A stretch of DNA of 39,065 nt from Spirochaetota bacterium (GTDB lineage: Bacteria > Spirochaetota > Spirochaetia > Treponematales > UBA12059), in the NCBI GenBank assembly GCA_029560805.1, contig JAKQKE010000187.1:1-39065 (forward strand), given 5' to 3'. The translations under genes were made by a program, and so were the position numbers. Below are positions 25,798 to 30,429 of this stretch, in pieces (within the stretch, counting starts at the first letter, position 1; every line of letters starts with the position of its first letter). The notes beneath the pieces were generated by a model. It saw only the letters and a list, made by a program, of their open reading frames with translations. It did not search any database and was not told where the DNA came from.

Positions 25798-25848
25798 CGG
25801 GCAGCCCCGGCCTCAACGCCGCGCCATAATGCGCCGATAGATAATCGT

Positions 25849-27069
25849 ATGGAAATGCAGACTGTCATCGCGGATCAGTATATAGCAAGAAGGCGAAAGC
25901 CGATACGAATCAGCGTCGATCGCGGGTTCTCGCATAGCTTGGCCGACGGCCGCATCGCCATGAAACCGGCCAGGCGCGAGAGCCGGCCCGTGACGCTCGA
26001 GCCGAGCGAGCCGTCATGGAGGCAATCCATCGGCAGACGCGCCAAGGCTCGGCCCAACCAGCCAGGCGGTCGGGTCGCAAAGCGGGTAGCCGTCATCGAT
26101 TCCATCTCCGGGCTCGTCGAAGCGCTCGCTTCTCCGAGGGTCGCTACGCCGATCGCCGGGATCGCCGGCGCGATAGCGCTCATGGTCGCTATCGCGGCGG
26201 TCGGAGCCTTCGGGCGCCCCGCCGACCTCACCTCCTTCGTCCTACCTGACGACGGCTCGTCCGCGGCGATCCTACTCGACGCGCTATCGCCGGCCGCCGA
26301 CTATGGGGCCGATTCGATACCGACCCCCGAGTTGCCGATGACGCTCAGGATAGCGACCTATACGGTAGCGAAGAACGATACGCTCGACGCCATTTCCAGG
26401 CGATACGGCCTACGGATGGACACGCTGATCAGCGTCAACGGCCTCGGCGACGCGCGACGCATCATCTCAGGCTCGACGCTCAAGGTGCCGAACCTAGACG
26501 GCGTCGTCCATACGGTGACGAAGGGCGAGTCGCTCGCAGGCATCGCCGCGGCCAAGGGCGTCTCCGTGCTCGATATCGTCGACGCGAACGATTTGGCCAG
26601 CCAGACCATCCTGCCGGGCCAGAGCCTATTCATCCCCGGGGCGAGGCTGTCCTCGTACGACCTCAAGAAGGCGCTCGGCCAGCTCGTCATCTGGCCGATC
26701 AACGGCAGGATCAGCTCGAACTTCGGCTACCGCCCCAATCCGTTCACCGGCGTCAGGCAGTTCCATAACGGCCTGGACATAGTCGGCCCGCTCAACGCTA
26801 CGGTGAAAGCCGCGATGGATGGCAAGGTGGCGGAAACCGGCTACAGCGCCGTCTTCGGCAATTTCGTCATCCTGAGCCATCCCGAGGGATACCAGACGCT
26901 CTACGCCCACCTGAACAAGATCAGTGTCAAGGCCGGCGTATCCATAGCTCAAGGCTCGCCGGTCGGTTTACTCGGTTCTACCGGGTATAGTACCGGCCCC
27001 CATCTGCACTTCGGCGTCTTCAAGCGAGGCGCGCCTTTGGACCCGCTCAAGCTGCTCAAAGGCGGCTGA
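25849..27069 (+). CDS. LysM/M23 family metallopeptidase (membrane-anchored)
   Basis: The 406-residue protein has a basic cytoplasmic N-terminus and a membrane segment (about 98-122, IAGIAGAIALMVAIAAVGAF). Two LysM peptidoglycan-binding domains follow (about 168-211 and 214-258; YTVAKNDTLDAISRRYGL and HTVTKGESLAGIAAAKGV). The M23 endopeptidase domain (about 275-400) has its zinc ligands in RQFHNGLDI (His and Asp) and in HLHFGV. It should cut or bind peptidoglycan in the periplasm, or serve as an activator if the cutting site is inhibited. The ATG has no Shine-Dalgarno. ATG at 25855 is a second candidate; TAGATAAT just upstream could act as a -10 box. It is divergent from lepB across 51 bases. 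Confidence 0.92.
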   Translation: MEMQTVIADQYIARRRKPIRISVDRGFSHSLADGRIAMKPARRESRPVTLEPSEPSWRQSIGRRAKARPNQPGGRVAKRVAVIDSISGLVEALASPRVATPIAGIAGAIALMVAIAAVGAFGRPADLTSFVLPDDGSSAAILLDALSPAADYGADSIPTPELPMTLRIATYTVAKNDTLDAISRRYGLRMDTLISVNGLGDARRIISGSTLKVPNLDGVVHTVTKGESLAGIAAAKGVSVLDIVDANDLASQTILPGQSLFIPGARLSSYDLKKALGQLVIWPINGRISSNFGYRPNPFTGVRQFHNGLDIVGPLNATVKAAMDGKVAETGYSAVFGNFVILSHPEGYQTLYAHLNKISVKAGVSIAQGSPVGLLGSTGYSTGPHLHFGVFKRGAPLDPLKLLKGG

Positions 27070-27307: not shown

Positions 27308-27331
27308 TGGCTACGCGCTCGAGACTCCTAG

Positions 27332-27362
27332 ACCGCCCCTTCACGGGGCGGTTTATTATTTT
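27332..27362 (+). terminator. Rho-independent terminator after the small membrane peptide gene
   Basis: ACCGCCCC and GGGGCGGT form an 8-bp stem with a five-base loop, followed by TTTATTATTTT. It insulates the following sigma-54 promoter from upstream transcription. Confidence 0.88.
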
Positions 27363-27499
27363 CTAGACGCATAAAAAGCGTGTTTGTGTACTGAAGTAGA
27401 CTATTGTTTCTGCCGACATGCTATCGCAAGTTATTATTGTAAGCTTATTTGGTTGTTTCATAATTACTTAGTGACGAGAGGCCCATGCTCTCAAATTTC

Positions 27500-27515
27500 T
27501 GGCACGCTTCTTGCA
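27500..27515 (+). promoter_or_regulatory. Near-perfect sigma-54 (-24/-12) promoter of the sigma factor gene
   Basis: TGGCACGCTTCTTGCA matches the sigma-54 consensus TGGCACG-N4-TTGCW throughout. GG (27501-27502) and GC (27513-27514) are exactly ten bases apart. The start point would be near 27526, followed by AGAGG (27527-27531) and the ATG at 27541. The AT-rich 135 bases upstream (27365-27499) hold the palindrome TAAGCTTA at 27440-27447, a possible activator site. Confidence 0.9.
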
Positions 27516-27540
27516 TCAAATATGGCAGAGGTAACAGGAA

Positions 27541-28383
27541 ATGAGTGCCAGAACAAATAAGTCAATATCTGAGGACACGCTTAAAATGTACTACGAGCGG
27601 GTAAAGCAGATACCGCTCCTCAGCGCCGAGGACGAGCGGGATCTCTCGATGCGCATCCAAGCCGGCGACGAGGCCGCCAGGACGCAACTCATCGAAGCCA
27701 ATCTCAGGCTGGTCATTAAGATAGCGCGTGCCTTCTCGAATTTCGACGTTCCCCTTATCGATCTTATCCAGGAAGGGAACATGGGCCTGATCAAGGCGGC
27801 CGAGCGGTTCGACTACCGCAGGAACGTACGTTTCTCCACCTATGCCTCGTGGTGGATCAAGCAGTCGGTGACCCGCTCGCTCGTCAACTCACGGCGCGCC
27901 ATTCGGCTTCCCCACCGTAAGGAAGAGCTGATACGACGCATCCACAGGACCTACGGATACCTGTCCCAGGCCCTCTCACGGGAACCGAGCAGCCTCGAGA
28001 TAGCGAACGAGCTCAACATCGACGAGAAGAACGTGCAGGAAGCCTTGGAGATGTCGGGCGCCATCATGCCGCTCGAGGGCGACTCCGACGATTCGGAGAG
28101 CGGCTGCGTACTGGACGTCTACGCTGACGAGACCTACAGCCCCGACGCGGCCTTCGCCCGCGATTGCCTTAGGGAAAAAACCGTCAGCCTGCTCGAGGCT
28201 CTGCTCGAGAAAGAACGCCAGGTATTGATCTATCGCTTCGAGCTGTACGGTAACAAGCGCAAGACGCTCAAGGGCATCGGCCAGAGCATGGGTATATCGG
28301 CTGAGACCGTGCGGCAGATCGAGAAACGGGCCATCCGCAAGCTGCGCGAGCATACCGAATACGCCGACTTCATAGGAGCCTGA
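27541..28383 (+). CDS. Sigma-70 family alternative sigma factor, RpoS/short RpoD type
   Basis: The 280-residue protein lacks the acidic region 1.1 of housekeeping sigma. Region 1.2 is at about 12-45 (LKMYYERVKQIPLLSAEDE). Region 2 has LIEANLRLVIKIARAF, LIDLIQEGNMGLIKAAERFD and RFSTYASWWIKQSVTRSLVN. Region 3 begins LPHRKEELIRRI, and region 4 has the HTH KGIGQSMGISAETVRQIEKR. The size and region layout match RpoS of Borrelia (about 267 residues) rather than RpoD. It is driven by a near-perfect sigma-54 promoter, the arrangement known for Borrelia rpoS. A short hairpin (GGAGCC-TGACAA-GGCTCC, 28375-28392) spans the stop codon. I leave the symbol open because orthology to rpoS cannot be proved here. 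Confidence 0.9.
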   Translation: MSARTNKSISEDTLKMYYERVKQIPLLSAEDERDLSMRIQAGDEAARTQLIEANLRLVIKIARAFSNFDVPLIDLIQEGNMGLIKAAERFDYRRNVRFSTYASWWIKQSVTRSLVNSRRAIRLPHRKEELIRRIHRTYGYLSQALSREPSSLEIANELNIDEKNVQEALEMSGAIMPLEGDSDDSESGCVLDVYADETYSPDAAFARDCLREKTVSLLEALLEKERQVLIYRFELYGNKRKTLKGIGQSMGISAETVRQIEKRAIRKLREHTEYADFIGA

Positions 28384-28445: not shown

Positions 28446-29441
28446 ATGCCTACGAAACGTCCGAGGAAGTCGCCGCGCGATCGGGGCGCCTCGATCTTGC
28501 TCTATACGAGCGCGACTCTCGTGCTCATGTCGTTCGCGCTGGCCATAGCGTTGTCAAGCGCGGGCTCCCGGCCAGATCGCGATGCGCGGCTACCGAAGGC
28601 TGACGAGAGGCAGGAAACGGCGGCGCCGCCCGCGCCGTCCGAGGCCGTCCCGAAGGGAGATGGCGGAGCGGCCGGACCGGCCATGACGGATACGGGCCCC
28701 ACCGTCGCGCCCCAACGGCCGCAGCCGGTCGAGCGGCCCGCCCCGCGATCCAGAGGCGTCCTGGTCTTCGTTATCGACGACGCCGGGCACAACCGATGGC
28801 AGCTCGAGCCGTTCCTGAAGCTACCCGGACCGATAACGATAGCCGTGCTACCTGGACTTCCCCATACGGCGAACGCCGCGTCGATGGTCAAGGCGGCGGG
28901 CAAGGAGCTCATACTGCACCAGCCCATGGAAGCGCTGGGCGGCCTAGACCCGGGGCCGGGCGCGATACGGGCGGACATGGACGACGGGACGATACGCGAC
29001 ATCATTCGCGGCAACCTGGCCCAGGTGCCGGGGGCCAGGGGCGTGAACAACCATATGGGCTCCAAGGCGACCTCCGATGTGCGGGTGATGTCCACCGTGC
29101 TCGACGAGACCTCCGCCAACGGGCTCTATTTCCTGGACTCTTTAACCACAGGCGATTCCGTGGTACACTCCGTGGCTTCGCTGATGAGACAATCCGCATG
29201 GGAGCGTAGCGTGTTTCTAGATAATACCCCCGACAAGGCCTCGATCCTCAACTACATCGCCGAGGGCACCAAGATAGCCGAGAAGCGCGGCTACGCCGTC
29301 ATGATAGGCCATGTCTGGTCATCGGAACTGGCCCAGACCCTGGCTGACCTGTACCCGCAGCTCCTGGAGCAGGGTTTCAGCCTGTCGACCATATCGAGGA
29401 TCATGATGGACGACGACGACGATGACGATACTGGGTATTGA
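28446..29441 (+). CDS. Divergent polysaccharide deacetylase, YibQ family
   Basis: The 331-residue protein has one N-terminal membrane segment (about 16-36, SILLYTSATLVLMSFALAIA), a Pro/Ala-rich linker to about 95, then the YibQ domain. Visible family motifs are VFVIDDAGHN, ITIAVLPGLPHTANAA, LHQPMEA, GVNNHMGSKAT and AVMIGHVW. It belongs to the glycosidase/deacetylase fold (NodB relatives) and probably acts on an envelope glycan; the substrate is unknown. It ends in seven consecutive Asp residues (MMDDDDDDDTGY), and this coding run contains the tsaD start codon, so the two genes overlap by 20 bases. The ATG lacks a Shine-Dalgarno and sits against a palindrome. Confidence 0.87.
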   Translation: MPTKRPRKSPRDRGASILLYTSATLVLMSFALAIALSSAGSRPDRDARLPKADERQETAAPPAPSEAVPKGDGGAAGPAMTDTGPTVAPQRPQPVERPAPRSRGVLVFVIDDAGHNRWQLEPFLKLPGPITIAVLPGLPHTANAASMVKAAGKELILHQPMEALGGLDPGPGAIRADMDDGTIRDIIRGNLAQVPGARGVNNHMGSKATSDVRVMSTVLDETSANGLYFLDSLTTGDSVVHSVASLMRQSAWERSVFLDNTPDKASILNYIAEGTKIAEKRGYAVMIGHVWSSELAQTLADLYPQLLEQGFSLSTISRIMMDDDDDDDTGY

Positions 29442-30429
29442 GTCGTCCTGCGACGAGTGCGCGGCGGCCATCGTCGCGGACGGCCGCCGCGTCGCCTCAA
29501 ACGTCGTGGCCACGCAGATCGCCAGGCACGCCGCCTTCGACGGCGTCGTACCGGAGATCGCCTCGCGCCTACATACCGAATGGATCCAGGACGTCGTATC
29601 GAAAGCCATCGCCGACGCTGGGATAGCCGAAGGCGCCATCGACGGCGTGGCCGTAACGGCCAGGCCCGGCCTCGCCGGCTCCCTGCTCGTCGGTGTATCC
29701 TTCGCCAAGGCGTTCGCCTGGTCGCGAGGTCTGCCTTTTATCGGCGTGAACCATGTGCTGGCCCACCTCTACGCGCCGCTCCTCGATGACGAGGTCGAGT
29801 ATCCATTCATCGGCCTGATCGTCTCCGGCGGCCACACGCTGATATGCCGGGCCGACGGTTTCGACGACGTAACCGTGCTGGGCACGACCATCGACGACGC
29901 CATCGGAGAGGCCTTCGATAAGGTGGCCAAGCACTACGGCCTCGGCTACCCGGGCGGTAGCGCCATCGACCGACTGGCGCGCGCGGGCGATGCCGCGGCC
30001 TGCGACTTCCCAAGGCCGAACCTGTACAAGGGCGAGCACCGCTACGATGTATCGTACTCTGGACTCAAGACGGCCGCCATACGCCAGCTCGATCAGTTCT
30101 GGAACCCCGCCTACGAGCGCAACGACGCCAACCTGGCCGCGGCCTTCGAGAGGGCGGCCGTCGACATGCTCGTCTCGAGGCTACTGCGAGCGCTGGACGA
30201 CACGGGCATACGCACGGTGGTCGCCGGCGGCGGCGTCGCGGCGAACACCTACCTGCGATCGCGCCTGGCCGGCAGGGCTGAGCTACGCGTACTCTTCCCG
30301 CCACTGTCGCTCTGCGGCGACAACGCCGCCATGGTCGCCGGCCTCGGCTACCGCATGCTGGAGCGCGGCGACAGGGACGGCCTCCAGCTCAACGCCTCGC
30401 CGCGCGTCGCCGCGTTCAAGCGATCCTAG
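29422..30429 (+). CDS. tsaD: tRNA threonylcarbamoyladenosine transferase TsaD
   Basis: This 335-residue ASKHA-fold protein carries out the last step of t6A37 tRNA modification with TsaB and TsaE. The opening TILGIESSCDECAAAIV is diagnostic. The metal ligands are His111 and His115 (NHVLAHLYAP). SGGHT, GTTIDDAIGEAFDKVAK and GGGVAAN follow in the usual order. Length is normal. The start overlaps the deacetylase gene by 20 bases and has no own ribosome site, so it is probably translated by coupling. tsaB and tsaE are not in this window. Confidence 0.96.
   Translation: MTILGIESSCDECAAAIVADGRRVASNVVATQIARHAAFDGVVPEIASRLHTEWIQDVVSKAIADAGIAEGAIDGVAVTARPGLAGSLLVGVSFAKAFAWSRGLPFIGVNHVLAHLYAPLLDDEVEYPFIGLIVSGGHTLICRADGFDDVTVLGTTIDDAIGEAFDKVAKHYGLGYPGGSAIDRLARAGDAAACDFPRPNLYKGEHRYDVSYSGLKTAAIRQLDQFWNPAYERNDANLAAAFERAAVDMLVSRLLRALDDTGIRTVVAGGGVAANTYLRSRLAGRAELRVLFPPLSLCGDNAAMVAGLGYRMLERGDRDGLQLNASPRVAAFKRS

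Follow-up and report, generated by a model that had tools for sequence, protein, structure and literature searches.

In Borrelia the sigma factor gene rpoS is activated by Rrp2 (PMC3037356, PMC11109971) in concert with RpoN, and the question raised by the locus described here is whether such a cascade is confined to host-adapted spirochaetes. The window, i.e. the whole 39,065-nucleotide stretch that was analysed, comes from a bacterium of the Treponematales and has a -24/-12 element directly before the gene for an RpoS-sized sigma factor; an earlier note had read this as a counterpart of the Borrelia cascade, and had suggested that the cascade may predate host adaptation and extend beyond it. 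The sigma factor of the window and its orthologues are termed P below. The features of the locus are as follows.

25849-27069, + strand: LysM-M23 peptidase (murein hydrolase type), upstream gene, a conserved neighbour in families f1 and f3
27329-27355, + strand: intrinsic terminator, 11-bp stem and T-rich tail, ending the upstream transcript
27349-27368, + strand: possible distal enhancer copy, half-site ..TAGAC, seen by eye and weak in the window
27385-27404, + strand: enhancer (UAS) TGTGTACTGAAGTAGACTAT, an inverted repeat, conserved in 106 of 110 P promoters
27437-27464, + strand: weak sigma-70-like site, TTGTAA-16-CATAAT, 9/12
27500-27515, + strand: RpoN -24/-12 promoter TGGCACGCTTCTTGCA, predicted transcription start near 27526
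27541-28383, + strand: sigma factor P, 280 aa, assigned as a Borrelia RpoS orthologue from domains, tree and residues
28446-29441, + strand: divergent polysaccharide deacetylase, downstream gene, kept beside P
29422-30429, + strand: TsaD-family gene, conserved third neighbour

The possible distal enhancer copy, about 30 nt upstream of the main one, is clearer in relatives, e.g. locus L125 with two direct copies. The deacetylase gene is possibly on the same transcript as P.

The -24/-12 element and the gene behind it

The element at 27500-27515 fits the sigma-54 promoter pattern TGGCAY-N5-TTGCW throughout, with exact GG-N10-GC spacing, as had been claimed, and the ATG of the 280-aa ORF lies 25 nt downstream of it. 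It is the sole zero-mismatch site in the 39-kb window, and the expectation that the genome encodes RpoN was borne out, rpoN being present in single copy in the 3.33-Mb genome together with 13 strong enhancer-binding proteins (EBPs). The strict pattern has 9 matches genome-wide, versus 2 for a reversed control pattern; several of the remaining 8 precede genes adjoining EBPs, or typical RpoN targets, and genes for TAXI-type solute receptors, glutamine synthetase, a short-chain fatty-acid transporter and an Hsp20-like protein (named by eye) are among those preceded. Elsewhere in the window, a one-mismatch site at 2340-2355 (TGGCACGCTTACTGCT), directly before an ORF for a secreted-looking protein (2372-2977), is a possible further RpoN promoter; an imperfect AT-rich palindrome lies near it, at about 2295-2313.

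Orthologous loci were collected from many families of the class Spirochaetia, giving 122 P loci (a few genomes being represented in two collections), together with 33 belonging to a paralogue, Q, and 6 rpoS loci of Borrelia. The best upstream -24/-12 score is 12/12 in 86 of the P loci, 11/12 in 34 and 10/12 in 2, so that 120 of 122 have the element at 11 or 12 of its 12 positions, and it is complete in all 6 Borrelia loci. Because the element is conserved in orthologous loci, and matched coding stretches score at most 10, a chance origin is excluded. In the same upstream scan rpoD, fliA and a third spirochaete group-2 sigma factor, R345, score at most 9; E. coli rpoH, scanned alongside, has a 12/12 element and E. 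coli rpoS has none. The element is thus kept across the class, and the presence of an RpoN promoter before P is strongly supported by these comparisons.

The gene itself was described in the earlier note as encoding a 280-residue sigma factor; ORF 27541-28383 has that length and the domain order Sigma70 r1.2-r2-r3-r4. The origin of Borrelia RpoS has been disputed, some authors doubting that it counts as an RpoS (PMC6719511). In a careful tree of 45 rows (LG+C20; a wider tree was also built), P groups with Borrelia RpoS, as had been anticipated, in one clade with support of 100/100, and the sister of this clade is Q (94/89). A tree constrained to join Borrelia to E. coli RpoS is rejected (p-AU 0.018), and one joining it to Q marginally so (p-AU 0.043); the Borrelia RpoS branch is very long.

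Gene order and individual residues agree with the tree. The window's own family has the LysM-M23 gene upstream of P, where families other than f1 and f3, and Borrelia, have flgJ. A gene named flgJ on the basis of its sequence and of the gene order known in Borrelia immediately precedes P in 16 loci spread over many families, and stands likewise next to and upstream of Borrelia rpoS. An R-K pair (R121-K122 in Borrelia RpoS, R126-K127 here) is present in 59 of 60 P sequences and absent from every other group; these two residues of Borrelia RpoS have been singled out as possible determinants of promoter selectivity (PMC6719511). The -35 recognition helix of region 4.2 reads S-x-E-T in P and Borrelia alone (SAETVRQIE in the window), versus T-K-E-R in Q and T-R-E-R elsewhere. 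Given the shared clade, the flgJ-rpoS synteny, the R-K pair and the changed -35 helix, it is strongly supported on sequence grounds that P is the orthologue of Borrelia RpoS (BB0771) and not of E. coli RpoS.

Similarity to the gamma-proteobacterial RpoS, as in E. coli, lies in size and domain layout; by contrast, the E. coli protein belongs to another clade, its gene lacks the -24/-12 element, and its region 3.1 and 4.2 residues differ. Orthology with it was considered and is ruled out by the tree, and although RpoS is the nearest NCBIfam model by score, P reaches only 229 bits against a cut-off of 394. Two loci of the Brachyspira-like family f44 (L376, L377) encode a sigma factor of about 309 aa; since this is R345-like and without a -24/-12 element, it is placed outside the cascade.

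The enhancer and the protein that may read it

The P promoters have a further conserved feature which, like the co-occurring EBP and the second sigma factor described below, the earlier note had not anticipated: an inverted repeat upstream of the -24 element with the consensus TGTATAAAAAAGTATACA, the class-wide type being TGTATAC-N4-GTATACA. It mostly starts 107-117 nt before the -24 element; in the window, where the pattern has a chance expectation of 0.02, the distance is 115 nt, and P promoters thereby have the inverted repeat at about 100-150 nt upstream that marks enhancer-dependent promoters. With both strands scanned at a score of at least 12, the enhancer is found in 106 of 110 P promoters versus 4 of 110 shuffled ones, in none of the 6 Borrelia promoters and in 3 of the 33 Q promoters. 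A search of 218 genomes for the joint pattern (enhancer, 78-108 nt, promoter) returned 26 sites, the reversed control none; 17 of the 26 lie before P, and another 6, from four families, before a gene for a membrane protein of about 200 aa.

This membrane protein (LRKSIHFLIALVPS..., loci L443, L444, L448, L450, L453 and L456), for which a Pfam search returned no family, is a predicted second conserved target of the P-type enhancer. An enhancer for self-control was sought near the EBP genes, and none that was convincing was found there. In four loci of family f4 (L035, L038, L141, L150) a second palindrome, GTAATTCCTT-N7-AAGGAATTAC, is situated between enhancer and promoter. The window has another 20-mer resembling the P enhancer (25846-25865, score 14.6), which extends over the beginning of the M23 gene; no -24/-12 element lies close to it.

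As to which EBP may act here, the candidate, termed E (clade L013; encoded in this genome at G000:C37:18836-20344), has the GAF-AAA-HTH_8 architecture of NifA/NorR-type EBPs, but lies below the NCBIfam cut-offs for nifA (432 versus 529 bits) and norR (381 versus 476 bits). E is present in 98 of 218 Spirochaetia genomes. With family f2 and Borrelia left out, and P called at a best-hit E-value of at most 1e-60, 67 genomes have P together with E, 73 have neither, 3 have P alone and none has E alone. These counts are not independent on the tree, though joint absence recurs inside families f2, f4 (G025) and f24 (G202). Within f2, E is present in every one of the 16 genomes in which P was verified by sequence, and G031 has neither gene. 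The T. denticola-like genome G133 of the same family, which is without P, has a diverged E-clade EBP (L302) with an altered Walker A motif (GENGVGKA) and no GAFTGA loop, which looks like a decayed remnant. The chief discordance is the three genomes with P alone at this cut-off, G162, G184 and G212; the enhancer is still present in the latter two, so that either E escaped detection in them or the enhancer is read by a different EBP. In G109, P with its enhancer is accompanied by just two EBPs, one being E and the other the Rrp2 orthologue. From this genome and the co-occurrence we infer E to be the EBP that acts at the P enhancer. Two further EBP clades, L011 and L015, also occur in the first five P-containing genomes; neither holds one of the two EBPs of G109, and both were set aside as activators of P.

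In a tree of EBPs, the Rrp2 clade (L012) has a single member from every one of the ten genomes of the first comparison, Borrelia and a T. pallidum-like genome among them. The label AtcR, tried for this universal EBP, is wrong, the clade being Rrp2; AtcR is a LytTR regulator (PMC12070737). The check for an Rrp2-like EBP that the earlier note had suggested came out in its favour, the genome of the window having an Rrp2-clade member. Its reading needs correction in that the probable activator of P is not this Rrp2 orthologue but a separate GAF-type EBP acting through an enhancer that Borrelia lacks.

Proposed mechanism and its alternatives

We regard it as very probable that P is the sigma factor of Borrelia RpoS, that RpoN transcribes its gene from 27500-27515, that an EBP, most likely E, acts at 27385-27404, and that Borrelia lost the enhancer and E and uses Rrp2. 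On this proposal, RpoN holoenzyme would transcribe P from the -24/-12 element; in the window's organism and in most other Spirochaetia having P, a hexameric EBP, most likely E, would bind the palindrome, its GAF domain presumably sensing a signal, and would loop to the polymerase, ATP hydrolysis then opening the promoter. Sigma P would in turn direct transcription of a regulon whose -35 element is altered. Borrelia would have inherited sigma gene and promoter, with enhancer and E lost, and Rrp2, as its sole EBP, would activate without an enhancer.

It may be asked whether, as the earlier note implied, Rrp2 orthologues, rather than E, read the enhancer of the RpoN-driven P genes. Their presence in all ten genomes first compared and the role of Rrp2 at Borrelia rpoS speak for this, yet the Rrp2 clade is retained in the T. 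pallidum-like and T. denticola-like genomes and in G288, all of which lack P and its enhancer, Rrp2 and P persist in Borrelia with the enhancer missing, and enhancer presence follows E and not Rrp2; we thus consider this version unlikely. Quite unlikely, too, is that the main promoter of P is of the sigma-70 type, with RpoN providing only a conditional boost. The strong terminator said to close off the upstream transcript is real (27329-27355), but the accompanying statement that the RpoN element is the only visible promoter was too strong, since the 9/12 site at 27437-27464 exists, and several promoters are common at genes for alternative sigma factors. The site is nonetheless weak and, as judged by eye, has no counterpart in aligned relatives, the conserved features upstream of P being the -24/-12 element and the enhancer. 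That P arose separately as a group-2 sigma factor and resembles the Borrelia case by convergence is highly improbable: the long Borrelia branch could accommodate it, as could the occurrence elsewhere of sigma-54 promoters before sigma genes, exemplified by E. coli rpoH, but the fully supported clade, the synteny and the shared rare residues argue against it.

The preferred mechanism, with E at the enhancer, differs from that in Borrelia burgdorferi in definable ways. Alike are the orthologous sigma gene, the full-consensus -24/-12 element, rpoN, the Rrp2 orthologue, the R-K pair of region 3.1, the S-x-E-T of region 4.2 and, in relatives of the window, the flgJ synteny; by contrast, the window has an upstream enhancer, at a distance of about 110 nt, and its genome a GAF-type EBP, both of which are absent from Borrelia. 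Published work on the Borrelia promoter describes rpoS as so far the sole gene found with a sigma-54 promoter and Rrp2 as the sole EBP (PMC11109971), activation by Rrp2 as enhancer-independent (Blevins 2009, cited in PMC3037356), and 78 bp upstream as sufficient for activation (PMC11109971). The absence of both enhancer and E from Borrelia in our comparison agrees with enhancer-independent activation by Rrp2. Since the UAS at 27385-27404 is conserved, the circuit of the window is a variant and not the Borrelia form with its single, enhancer-independent EBP.

A second sigma factor and the origin of the Borrelia circuit

The paralogue Q, a group-2 sigma factor of about 290 aa, is likewise preceded by its own RpoN promoter and occurs in most of the class, but it forms a separate clade (100/99), lacks the R-K pair and has a different palindrome. 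The -24/-12 score is 12/12 in 24, 11/12 in 6 and 10/12 in 3 of the 33 Q promoters (loci including L195, L200, L201, L232, L233, L239-L247, L253, L256, L260, L262, L270 and L271). An unsupervised motif search of these promoters gave TGTGTCA-N4-TGACACA (18.5 bits versus 9.8 for shuffled sequences), which is found in 29 of the 33 and in 0 of 110 P promoters. In the T. pallidum-like locus L232 the Q promoter is kept (TGGCATGATATTTGCT) and the enhancer is not clear; Q, presumably TP1012, is the only group-2 sigma factor of the T. pallidum-like genome G031. Q was not found in the assembly of the window's genome, which could reflect an assembly gap, its genus mates G014 and G015 having Q. Because Rrp2 is the only EBP clade common to all Q genomes compared, it is plausible that Rrp2 activates Q.

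A broader reading, towards which we lean with some reserve, is that the ancestor of Spirochaetia had two such modules, with E acting via TGTATAC-N4-GTATACA on P and, probably, Rrp2 via TGTGTCA-N4-TGACACA on Q. Genome reduction would have left Borrelia with P, rewired to Rrp2 without an enhancer, and the relatives of T. pallidum and T. denticola with Q, such that host-adapted spirochaetes reuse leftovers of a free-living circuit. The 'RpoS-like' factors of Borrelia and of the T. pallidum/T. denticola relatives would then be paralogues.

A literature search, with most subscription journals outside it, found no description of a class-wide spirochaete RpoN-sigma cascade. The conservation of both element and orthologue across Spirochaetia upholds the proposal that the cascade predates host adaptation and reaches beyond it, and shows, as far as sequences can, that the virulence switch of Borrelia goes back to an ancient regulatory circuit of the spirochaete class, the window holding a fuller and probably ancestral form of it. 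The sigma factor and promoter are those of Borrelia; what is new is the different activator and enhancer, whose functions we infer. That free-living spirochaetes have an orthologue, with promoter and neighbouring gene in common, provides an ancestry for Borrelia RpoS, and the loss of the enhancer and of the EBP that probably acts on it may be why Rrp2 needs no enhancer there. In Treponema, an uncharacterised RpoN-to-sigma link is predicted, and the free-living relatives offer organisms in which the fuller circuit may be studied.
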